Below are positions 34,619 to 38,460 of a stretch of DNA of 64,000 bases, one piece after another. Within the stretch, counting starts at the first letter, position 1. Every line of letters starts with the position of its first letter. Under the pieces are notes generated by a model, which saw only the letters and a program-made list of their open reading frames with translations, searched no databases and had not been told where the DNA came from. Location of the stretch: NCBI GenBank assembly GCA_019311105.1, contig JAFDDA010000026.1, positions 1-64,000 on the forward strand, given 5' to 3'. This DNA comes from Deltaproteobacteria bacterium. GTDB lineage: Bacteria; Myxococcota_A; UBA9160; JAFDDA01. The position numbers and the translations under genes are program-made.

Positions 34619-36607
34619 CTACGGCGTGACGATCGGGAACTCCGGGTCGAAGTCGTCGAGCAGGGAGAAGAACCCGATCAGTGCGAGCCGGCTGCCGTCG
34701 ACGTCGATATCACCCGCCAGGAGCTTGCGGCGCAGGGTCGTCTGCTTGGTGATGATCTGATCCCAGGTTTCGCGCGTGAGCTTCAGTGTGGCGTCGGCCT
34801 CTACAGGGGCGTCGGCCCGGCGATGATGCAGGACGGCGTTCTCGAGCCAGACGACGTGGGTCTCGTCGATGTCGGTGAAGACGAAGTTCAGGGTCACCTC
34901 TTCGTCTTCGGCGTCGGGCCCGTTCAGGCGGACCGCCAGGGCATCGAAGAAGAGGTCGCTCGGCATGGCTCCCACGATGTCGGAGCTGCCCGTGGTCTCG
35001 AAGGGCAGCGGAGCCATGCCCTCGCGCAGTTCCTTCGCGCCCGTCAGATAGAAGTCGCGCCACGGGCCCGACTCGGCCTGGTAGCCGAGCTGATCGTAGG
35101 CGGATGCGAGCAGGGCCTTGGCCGCCTCGTTGTCGGGCTCCGCGAAGACGAGGTGGTTCACCACCTGCGCCACCCAGCGGTACTCGCCGCGGTCGTAGGA
35201 GGCCTGGGCCTTCTCGAGCAACGCCGCACCGCCGCCCATGAACTCGACATAGCGCTCCGCCGCGTCGACGGGCGGCAGCGGATTCAGGTTCGCCGGGTTC
35301 GCATCGAAGAATCCGAAGTAGTGCTGGTAGACGGCCTTCGAGTTGTGATTCACCGTGCCGTAGTAGCCGCGCACGGCGAAGGTCTCGGCCAAGCTCTTGG
35401 GCAGCTCGATCTGTTCGGCGATCTCGATCATGGTCTCGCCGTGGTTCGCCAGCCGCAGCGTCTGATCGTGGATGTACTTGTAGACGTCGCGCTGCTTCTT
35501 CAGGTAGTCGACGATCTCGGCGTTGCCCCAGGTCGGCCAGTGATGGCTCGCGAAGAGCACCTCCGCCTCGCCGCCGAAGCGATCGATCGTCTCCTGGATG
35601 TATCCGCTCCACAGCAGGGCGTCGCGCACCTTCGCGCCGCGCAGGGTGTAGAGGTTGTGGAGCACATGGGAAACGTTCTCGGCTCCACAGATGGCCTTGC
35701 GATCGGGGAGGTAGACCATCATCTCGGCCGGTGCTTCGGCGCCGGGCGTGTTCTGGAAGATCATGCGGACGCCGTCGACGGTGATCTCGGTCGGCGTGTG
35801 ATCGACCGTGCGGGTGGGCGCGACCAAGCTGAACGTACCCGGGGTAGATGCCTTGCCGAGGCCCGAATCCACGTGCCCGCGCGGCCCGCGGTGCAGCAGG
35901 AAGCCGAACATGTAGCTGGCGCGGCGCGACATGGTCGTGCCGGCGAGGACGTTCTCCGAGACGGCCTCCACGATGAAGCCTTCCGGCGCGATCACGGGCG
36001 TGTCGCCCGGCTCGGGCAGCACACCACGCGCGCCGCCAAAGTGATCGATGTGACTGTGCGTGTAGATGAGACCCGTCACCGGGCGCTCGCCCAGATGTTC
36101 GGTCACCAGCTCCAGCGCAGCGCGGCCCGTCTCCATGGTGGTGCCCGGGTCGATCACGATCCAACCCGTGTCGCCGGCGATGAAGGTCATGTTGGCGAGG
36201 TCGTAGCCGCGGACCTGGTAGATCCCCTCCTGCACTTCGTAGAGGCCGTGCATCAGGTTGAGCTTCGCCTGGCGCCAGAGGCTCGGGTGGACGCTGTCGG
36301 GTGCGTCGCCCTCGGTGAAGGCGAAGCGGTCGAGGTTCCAGACTTCGGAGCCGTCGGCCTTGCGGATCACCGGGTCCTTGCGAGAACCGATGAAGCCACG
36401 CTTCGCCGCGACGAAGTCGGCGCGATCGTCGAAGGGCAGCCGATCGAGGACGGCGGCGTTGGCCTTCGCGGTGTAGGACGTGGCAGCGACGTGGCCGCTC
36501 TCCGCGTCGCCCAACGCCCCAGGTGTCGGTGCCTCGTCGCCGCAGGCGGCGACCCCAAGAGCGAAGGCGATCGAGGCCGCGACGTGCGCGACACGGTTCG
36601 AAGTCAT
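34619..36607 (-). CDS. Alkylsulfatase (SdsA/BDS1 type, metallo-beta-lactamase fold), predicted lipoprotein
   Basis: 662 residues. The signal FALGVAAC marks a lipoprotein (Cys22). The metallo-beta-lactamase zinc motif THSHIDHFGG lies near residue 183, with PAEMMVYLPDRKAICGAENV near 292 and ASHHWPTWGN near 355 completing the zinc region. A dimerisation domain (YYGTVNHNSKAVYQHYFGFFDANP) and a C-terminal SCP2-like domain (LFFDALAVRLNGPDAEDEEV onward) match the SdsA1 architecture. SdsA enzymes release sulfate and alcohol from alkyl sulfates such as SDS. Start ATG 36607. With two other sulfatase-fold genes nearby it suggests use of sulfated lipids or surfactants. Confidence 0.92.
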   Translation of the reverse strand: MTSNRVAHVAASIAFALGVAACGDEAPTPGALGDAESGHVAATSYTAKANAAVLDRLPFDDRADFVAAKRGFIGSRKDPVIRKADGSEVWNLDRFAFTEGDAPDSVHPSLWRQAKLNLMHGLYEVQEGIYQVRGYDLANMTFIAGDTGWIVIDPGTTMETGRAALELVTEHLGERPVTGLIYTHSHIDHFGGARGVLPEPGDTPVIAPEGFIVEAVSENVLAGTTMSRRASYMFGFLLHRGPRGHVDSGLGKASTPGTFSLVAPTRTVDHTPTEITVDGVRMIFQNTPGAEAPAEMMVYLPDRKAICGAENVSHVLHNLYTLRGAKVRDALLWSGYIQETIDRFGGEAEVLFASHHWPTWGNAEIVDYLKKQRDVYKYIHDQTLRLANHGETMIEIAEQIELPKSLAETFAVRGYYGTVNHNSKAVYQHYFGFFDANPANLNPLPPVDAAERYVEFMGGGAALLEKAQASYDRGEYRWVAQVVNHLVFAEPDNEAAKALLASAYDQLGYQAESGPWRDFYLTGAKELREGMAPLPFETTGSSDIVGAMPSDLFFDALAVRLNGPDAEDEEVTLNFVFTDIDETHVVWLENAVLHHRRADAPVEADATLKLTRETWDQIITKQTTLRRKLLAGDIDVDGSRLALIGFFSLLDDFDPEFPIVTP

Positions 36608-36623: not shown

Positions 36624-36743
36624 CTAGCGATTGCGGTAGCGGTAGCGGATCTCGTCGTTGGCCGCGTTGTGCTTCTCGGGGCGGTTGTTGGTCATGGTGA
36701 CCACGGGGCCATCGAACTCGAGCAGGATGGTGTCGCTTGCCAA
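36624..36743 (-). pseudogene. Enoyl-CoA hydratase remnant: N-terminus joined to a few C-terminal residues
   Basis: A 39-codon frame from TTG 36743 (GGGAG 5 bases upstream) reads SDTILLEFDGPVVTMTNNRP and EKHNAANDE, the unmistakable first strands and helix of a crotonase. It then ends RYRYRNR and a stop. Crotonases need about 260 residues, so roughly 220 are missing while a plausible family C-terminus and the frame are retained. It lies 18 bases downstream of the intact crotonase at 36762-37577. The start signal is intact, so a 39-residue peptide might still be made. Confidence 0.7.
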
Positions 36744-36761
36744 GGGGTCTCCCGAGTTCTG

Positions 36762-37577
36762 CTAGCGGCCCTTGAAGACCGGCGCGCGCTTCTCGGAGAA
36801 GGCGGCGATGGCTTCGAGGTAGTCGTCGGTCTGGGCGCCCGCGACCATGCGCTCGGCCTCGAGGTCGAGGCACTCGCGCAGACCGAGGGTGAGGGCGCGG
36901 TTCAGATTGTCCTTCATGAATCCGTGGGCAACCGGCGGGCCCGAGGCGACCTGGCGGGCCCACTCGAAGGCGGCATCGGCGAGCTCGGCGTCGGGGACAA
37001 CGCGGTTCACGAGCCCGAGATCCACGCACTCGGCCGCGTCGACGCGCTCGGAGGTGTAGAAGAACTCGCGCGCCTTGGCCGGGCCGACGAGGTGGGTCAT
37101 GAACCAGCTCGAGCCGTAGTCGCCCGAGAGCCCGAGCCGCGCGTAGGACGTCGTCATGAAGGCCGACTCCGCGGCGACCCGGAGATCGGCGGAGAGCGCG
37201 ATGCCGAGCCCGGCGCCCGCCGCGGGGCCGTTCAACGCCACGAGGGTCGGCTTCTCCATGGTGTGCAAGAGCCACGGGATCTGATGTTCGCCGTGGAGCA
37301 GTGCGAGCCGCTCTTCGGGGGACGGCGGCTCGCCCTCGTTCTGCATGCTCTTCGTGTCACCGCCGGCGCAGAAGCCTTTGCCCGCACCGGTCAGGAGCAC
37401 GCAGCCCACCGCGGTGTCGGTGGACAGATCGGACAGCGTCTCGATGAGCGCGTCCTTCATCTCCCAGGTCAGCGCGTTGCGGGCCTCGGGGCGGTTCAGG
37501 GTCAGCACCGCGACGCGGGCTTCCGGGCGGCCGAGGATCTCCTCGCTGCCGGTGTCGATAGGGGTCGCTTCGCTCAA
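36762..37577 (-). CDS. Crotonase family protein (GDYG subgroup), atypical active site
   Basis: 271 residues. FCAGGDTKSM near residue 69 and the C-terminal FSEKRAPVFKGR define the crotonase fold. The two glutamate positions of true hydratases are Gly (GAGLGIALSAD) and Ala (TSYARLGLSGDYGSSW). The GLSGDYG signature occurs in a widespread subgroup labelled enoyl-CoA hydratase whose reaction is mostly untested. ATG 37577 has GGAGG just upstream. It is followed at 18 bases by a truncated crotonase remnant, which points to a former tandem pair. Confidence 0.88.
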   Translation of the reverse strand: MSEATPIDTGSEEILGRPEARVAVLTLNRPEARNALTWEMKDALIETLSDLSTDTAVGCVLLTGAGKGFCAGGDTKSMQNEGEPPSPEERLALLHGEHQIPWLLHTMEKPTLVALNGPAAGAGLGIALSADLRVAAESAFMTTSYARLGLSGDYGSSWFMTHLVGPAKAREFFYTSERVDAAECVDLGLVNRVVPDAELADAAFEWARQVASGPPVAHGFMKDNLNRALTLGLRECLDLEAERMVAGAQTDDYLEAIAAFSEKRAPVFKGR

Positions 37578-37675
37578 CGGGCCTCCGAGACGCCCACTCT
37601 ATCACCCCCGCCCCGCCTCTGGCCGGGCGCGCTAACGTGGCCCTCCGGTTCCACGGCCTGCAAAGGGAGAGACGC

Positions 37676-37834
37676 ATGGGCTTGCCCGAACCGCCGGCGC
37701 TCGGCGCGTCGGCGCTGCCGGCCGGCACCTTCGACGGCCAGGTCGTCGTGGTCACCGGTGGAGGGACCGGTCTCGGCAAGGCCGTGGCCGTGGAGTTCGG
37801 CAAGGGCCCGTTCAGCCTCGACGGGAAGAAGTAG
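37676..37834 (+). pseudogene. SDR remnant: N-terminus joined to C-terminus with the middle missing
   Basis: A 52-residue frame from ATG 37676 with AAGGGAGAG upstream. It carries the start of an SDR, FDGQVVVVTGGGTGLGKAVA then VEF, and ends GKGPFSLDGKK, which resembles the C-terminal tail of the same SDR family (tails with FGKGPF). About 220 internal residues, including the catalytic Ser-Tyr-Lys, are absent, yet the frame and both ends remain. The stop is followed directly by the isochorismatase-like gene's ribosome-binding site (AGGAG), so the operon layout is otherwise intact. Confidence 0.7.
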
Positions 37835-37842
37835 GAGAGCCC

Positions 37843-38460
37843 GTGCCCCTCGACCTCGCCGCCCTGCTCGACCCGAAGCACACCGCCCTGGTGACCCAGG
37901 AGGTGCAGCGCGGTGTCGTGGGCGACCTCTCGCAACTTCCAGATCTCGCGGAGGCCGCAGCGCCGATCCTCCCGAACATCGGGCGCCTCGCGGCCGCGGC
38001 CCGGGCCGCGGGCGTGCCCGTGATCCACTGCACCGCCGAACGTCGCGCCGACGGTCTGGGCGGGAACTCGAACGCGCGCATCTTCCAGTACATGGCGAAG
38101 GCTCCGGTGACGCTCACGCCCGGCTCGGACGCCGCGGCGATCGTTCCCGAAGTCCCGGTCGAAGAGTCCGACCTCGTCCTGCCCCGCCTGCACGGCCTCT
38201 CGCCCTTCCAGGGGACCGAGCTCGACTTCATCCTCCGCAACCTCGGCGTCACCACGATCGTAGGCACCGGCGTCTCGGTGAACGTCGCGATCACGAACCT
38301 GAGCCTCGATGCGGTCAACGCCGGCTACCAGGTCGTGATCCCGCGCGATGCCGTGGCTGGCTTTCCGGCCGAATACGTCGACATGGTCTTCCAGCACACG
38401 CTCGGCGCCGTCTCCACGATCCTCGACACGGACACCGTCGCCAAGGCGTGGGGCGCATGA
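37843..38460 (+). CDS. Isochorismatase-like hydrolase family protein with all three catalytic residues substituted
   Basis: 205 residues from GTG 37843 with AGGAG 6 bases upstream. The fold is clear: TALVTQEVQRGVV at residue 15, VPVIHCTAERR near 60, VLPRLHGLSPFQGTELDFIL near 110 and IVGTGVSVNVAITNLSLDAV near 140. In cysteine hydrolases the triad is Asp (IDMQ), Lys (K before SAF) and Cys (CV in the last motif). Here the aligned residues are Glu, Arg and Asn. It is therefore either a pseudoenzyme or a subgroup with different chemistry. The stop overlaps the NUDIX start (ATGA), so the two are translationally coupled. Confidence 0.82.
   Translation: MPLDLAALLDPKHTALVTQEVQRGVVGDLSQLPDLAEAAAPILPNIGRLAAAARAAGVPVIHCTAERRADGLGGNSNARIFQYMAKAPVTLTPGSDAAAIVPEVPVEESDLVLPRLHGLSPFQGTELDFILRNLGVTTIVGTGVSVNVAITNLSLDAVNAGYQVVIPRDAVAGFPAEYVDMVFQHTLGAVSTILDTDTVAKAWGA

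Follow-up and report, generated by a model that had tools for sequence, protein, structure and literature searches.

Remnants of an SDR and a crotonase gene beside an intact crotonase in an uncultured Deltaproteobacteria bacterium: probable gene loss by internal deletion

Internal deletions and gene remnants in bacteria

Loss of frame in a tight operon can silence the genes downstream, and in laboratory in-frame deletion mutants the first and last few codons of the gene are left in place to avoid such polarity. Natural gene decay has been followed in Streptococcus agalactiae, where repeats (median 8 nt) border 70% of the indels longer than 4 nt, an outcome attributed to recombination that does not depend on RecA (PMC3637634). 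Kaul et al. described deletion-born fusion ORFs, in which two different genes are joined, and set aside internal deletions, of which mngB in E. coli is an example (PMC12803068).

The locus presented here, in which two short ORFs appear to be the joined ends of an SDR gene and of a crotonase gene, has features of each of these. As in the decay of S. agalactiae ST260-261 (PMC3637634), dispensable genes have lost large internal parts, the deletions can end in repeats of a few nucleotides, and some members of the population have yet to lose the intact gene; unlike that case, two neighbouring deletions happen to keep the frame, and any repeats at the two focal junctions are putative. As in the deletion-born fusion ORFs (PMC12803068), a deletion has joined an ORF start to an ORF end and left a new short ORF, but here a single gene supplied both the start and the end of each remnant. 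The remnants are also built like laboratory in-frame deletion mutants, with a start, a few codons, the last codons and the stop, although they belong to a natural, uncultured bacterium and carry no scar sequence.

A three-gene module with its outer genes reduced to stumps

The window, which is the whole stretch of 64,000 nucleotides that was analysed, contains these two ORFs on either side of a complete crotonase gene (Table 1). The first-pass annotation had described them as mini-genes, each with the middle lost in frame; both ORFs were confirmed, and their ends match genes of relatives. The gene between them, crotonase 1 (crot1), is intact as had been claimed, with full coverage of PF00378 (4.6e-53). 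The order, an SDR on one strand with crot1 and then crotonase 2 (crot2) divergently on the other, is the same as in relatives, with the outer two genes present as stumps and crot1 whole.

Table 1. Features at and around the two remnants, with positions in the window
Feature	Position	Strand	Remarks
Alkyl-sulfatase-like metallo-beta-lactamase-fold gene	34619..36607	-	start 16 nt past crot2 remnant stop; ribosome-binding site GAGGAGG
Crotonase 2 (crot2) remnant	36624..36743	-	39 aa, TTG start
Crotonase 1 (crot1), enoyl-CoA hydratase family	36762..37577	-	271 aa, intact
SDR remnant	37676..37834	+	52 aa, ATG start, ribosome-binding site GGGAGAG
SDR junction	37795..37805	+	putative 5-nt microhomology TCGGC, deduced from relatives
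Isochorismatase-family hydrolase	37843..38460	+	start 8 nt past SDR remnant stop; ribosome-binding site overlaps stop (TAGGAGAGCCCGTG)

Comparison was made with 60 other genomes of the same order, none of the same genus or family being among the relatives returned; the closest named relative, from GTDB contigs, was the same-order Deltaproteobacteria bacterium Meg19_02_Bin_77, and the other match was an unrelated Gelidibacter. Orthologues of SDR, crot1 and crot2 co-occur in 26-27 of the 60. An SDR with the same ~43 N-terminal residues (67-84% identical) is found in 27, always within a long open frame; where the whole locus was read, the protein has 289-307 aa. A crotonase that starts like the crot2 stump is also found in 27, and crot1 orthologues (57-68% identical) occur in 26, essentially the same set. 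The first-pass annotation had proposed a search of close relatives for full-length versions; in these relatives from the order, full-length orthologues occupy the same locus order. The divergent arrangement is the usual one, with exceptions in which the two crotonases have changed places (a few genomes) or crot2 lies on a separate contig (some genomes). NCBIfam gives 2,4-dienoyl-CoA reductase as the closest family for the SDR and enoyl-CoA hydratase for the two crotonases, in each case with a score under the curated cut-off. Mini versions of the SDR or crot2 were not found in any of the 60 genomes, such that within this set stumps were seen in the present genome only. In those loci of relatives that were examined, the module has neither an isochorismatase-family nor an alkyl-sulfatase-like gene beside it.

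Structure of the two remnants

The SDR remnant (MGLPEPPALGASALPAGTFDGQVVVVTGGGTGLGKAVAVEFGKGPFSLDGKK) has kept codons 1-42, which run on without a change of frame into the final ~11 codons; about 240 codons have been lost, and the glycine at the junction is ambiguous. Its residues 1-43 are up to 81-84% identical to the N-termini of full-length SDRs from the order, with E-values down to 7e-19 per genome, and its tail, GKGPFSLDGKK, matches the true C-terminus of these proteins (LGKGPFEL and LGKEPFSLD, each followed by the stop), such that both ends (42 + 11 residues) match strongly to the ends of one gene. Comparison with relatives, rather than with the lost sequence itself, suggests a microhomology of TCGGC at this junction, with GAGTTCGGC on the left side and CAGCTCGGC on the right.

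The crot2 remnant (MASDTILLEFDGPVVTMTNNRPEKHNAANDEIRYRYRNR) combines ~31 N-terminal codons (36651-36743) with the last five codons and stop (RYRNR, 36624-36641), again in frame and with a loss of about 221 codons; the earlier estimate had been about 220 residues for each gene. Residues 1-31 are 77-80% identical to the N-terminus of a crotonase that is 258-261 aa long where complete. The first-pass annotation had joined this start to RYRYRNR; the start holds, but only RYRNR of the tail matches the crotonase C-terminus, which in relatives reads K/R-Y/F-R-x-R/N before the stop, and residues 32-34 (IRY), at the join, are assigned to neither end. The putative assignment of the tail rests on five residues and the stop. 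Chance matching is excluded for the N-terminal parts of both remnants. No clear microhomology was seen at the crot2 junction when it was compared with relatives.

Full-length orthologues of the two genes were not found elsewhere in the ~90% complete assembly, where the best other matches, 39% identical for the SDR and 35% identical for crot2, are distant paralogues. The features expected of an internally deleted pseudogene are all present at both sites: the two ends come from the same gene, a full-length orthologue lies at the same locus in relatives, the catalytic core is missing and the assembly holds no complete copy (at 90% completeness, an unassembled copy is possible).

Are the short ORFs functional?

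Both mini-ORFs are called as coding by a codon-usage gene caller trained on their own genome. One rival reading is that they persist because they have a function, whether as short peptides or as leader ORFs governing translation of the gene downstream. Their start sites and ribosome-binding sites are retained, both end 8-16 nt upstream of another gene's start codon, and their N-terminal parts have diverged no more than those of intact genes, the mean identity of the SDR remnant to relatives being 0.79 compared to 0.75 among the relatives, and that of crot2 being 0.60 in both comparisons. Third codon positions account for most of the changes (19 of 26 for the SDR and 16 of 24 for crot2). A recent deletion, however, explains such conservation equally well; the retained N-terminal codons are what it would be expected to leave, and they would also be compatible with selection on the stump. 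Furthermore, the mini version occurs in none of the 60 relatives searched and neither peptide has a Pfam domain match. Given the folds of the two families, the SDR peptide would end in the first part of the cofactor-binding domain, and the active-site region would be absent from the crotonase peptide. Retention for a function of the peptides, or as leaders, seems to us very unlikely, and no evidence was found to support the selection for small peptides that the first-pass annotation had considered.

Other internal deletions in the same genome

A scan for further remnants, using N-terminal matches, collinear pieces and tblastn gaps, covered 1.94 Mb of the assembly (76 contigs, 1912 called genes). 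In a luciferase-like gene (C160:205-393), codon 21 is joined in frame to codon ~248 by a deletion of exactly 687 bp (229 codons) between copies of GGCGAT, and the undeleted allele of 291 aa is present on another contig (C212:129-1004), with outer flanks 99-100% identical. An SDR of 219 aa (C22:4501-5160) has, relative to nearly all paralogues, an in-frame gap of ~35 residues just before the YxxxK active-site motif, a gap seen in 91 of 99 reference comparisons, and a flavin-monooxygenase-like ORF (C135:3453-3776) has an in-frame gap of ~62 residues followed by truncation. An acyl-CoA ligase (C19:32773-32944) retains ~22 N-terminal and ~36 C-terminal codons and has lost ~440 aa, in this case out of frame.

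Other observations came from the same scan. C160:1-521 and C212:1-1232 also differ upstream, where 24 bp have been deleted among short repeats. A short flavin-monooxygenase-like N-terminal stump (C29:9418-9519), for which no tail could be assigned, overlaps the beginning of the crotonase gene that follows it. Several candidates were rejected as internal deletions, viz. a P450 (C135:11334-12583) whose coding sequence now lies in two frames after a frameshift, probably a point indel, a CaiB-like gene on C186 with a plain frameshift, and candidates on C12, C69, C198 and C177 with weak or domain-level matches.

Considering the suggestion that clean ends are rare in random decay and may point to a specific mechanism, these cases indicate that none is needed, because internal deletions recur in the genome, in frame and out of frame, and one of them segregates with its intact allele. 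A dedicated programme or enzyme that cuts gene interiors in frame in this lineage could be suggested from at least four in-frame internal deletions (the two focal ones and those on C160 and C22, with C135 arguably a fifth), three of which span 221-240 codons. Against this, an out-of-frame case exists on C19, the deletion sizes vary from 35 to ~440 codons, the junctions share no common motif (GGCGAT on C160/C212, TCGGC via relatives at the SDR, no clear one at crot2), searching for in-frame cases carries a bias and similar sizes follow from similar gene lengths; such a programme is extremely unlikely. An excess of in-frame over out-of-frame deletions is not supported by the small, detection-biased counts, as ORF-based searches find in-frame cases more easily.

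Real alleles or false joins

The assembly is of the metagenome type, with 258 contigs and 4.76 Mb, ~90% complete and 4% contaminated. The contig ends C125/C177, C148/C9, C14/C208, C198/C74, C11/C246 and C203/C233 overlap at 92-97% identity, which indicates that several strains have been merged. In such a fragmented and strain-mixed assembly, with two junctions no more than 1.2 kb apart, the source strain could have full-length genes and the contig could be a false join, made by repeat collapse or by amplification chimeras. The junction words are, however, unique in the genome (the 20-mer has at least two mismatches elsewhere and the 24-mer has no other match at up to three mismatches) and give no sign of repeat collapse at these joins, repeats of 5-6 nt fall far below the length of assembly k-mers and are too short for collapse of a k-mer graph, and the assembler kept the C160 and C212 alleles as separate contigs. 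Frame would also be kept at both sites of an artefact with a chance of only 1/9. Together, the C160/C212 pair and the overlapping contig ends make a mixed population in which the alleles are real more likely than false joins. The assembly collapse that had been raised earlier is unlikely at the focal junctions, and the same low probability applies to an artefact of assembly or library in general.

Probable gene loss by internal deletion

It is highly probable that the mini-ORFs are the remnants of an SDR and a crotonase gene, both of a fat-metabolism type, each of which has lost ~700 bp by internal deletion, most likely RecA-independent and between repeats of a few bases. The deletions may be recent. 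Recombination or slippage between such repeats would remove the gene interior, as may also have happened between the GGCGAT copies on C160, and co-existing strains would carry the deleted and undeleted alleles. Selection would act against any deletion that extended into the start or promoter region or into crot1, or that took away the next gene's ribosome-binding site, such that the survivors would keep both ends. The retention of start, frame and stop would be partly by chance, with selection against polarity on the close downstream genes a plausible additional filter, since both stumps lie 8-16 nt before a downstream start. By chance alone, frame is kept at both sites in 1/9 of cases, and two in-frame deletions within 1.2 kb are a mild coincidence that counts against this explanation.

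A stronger form of the argument is that operon polarity filters internal deletions in this lineage. Gene loss would then tend to leave in-frame stumps, which retain a translation start and pass ribosomes on to the gene that follows. We think this improbable; stump ORFs would, if it were true, be a stable intermediate of gene loss.

Implications

The observation is real, and its explanation is most likely ordinary gene loss. Stumps of this type can be called as short genes though no domain model recognises them, which calls for caution in annotation. The co-existence of deleted and full-length alleles, as on C160 and C212, means that bias in the frame and end points of natural internal deletions can be tested with population reads, including a possible bias of such deletions toward in-frame stumps through operon polarity. 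For this bacterium, two of the three members of a co-inherited CoA-metabolism module have been lost and the third is intact.
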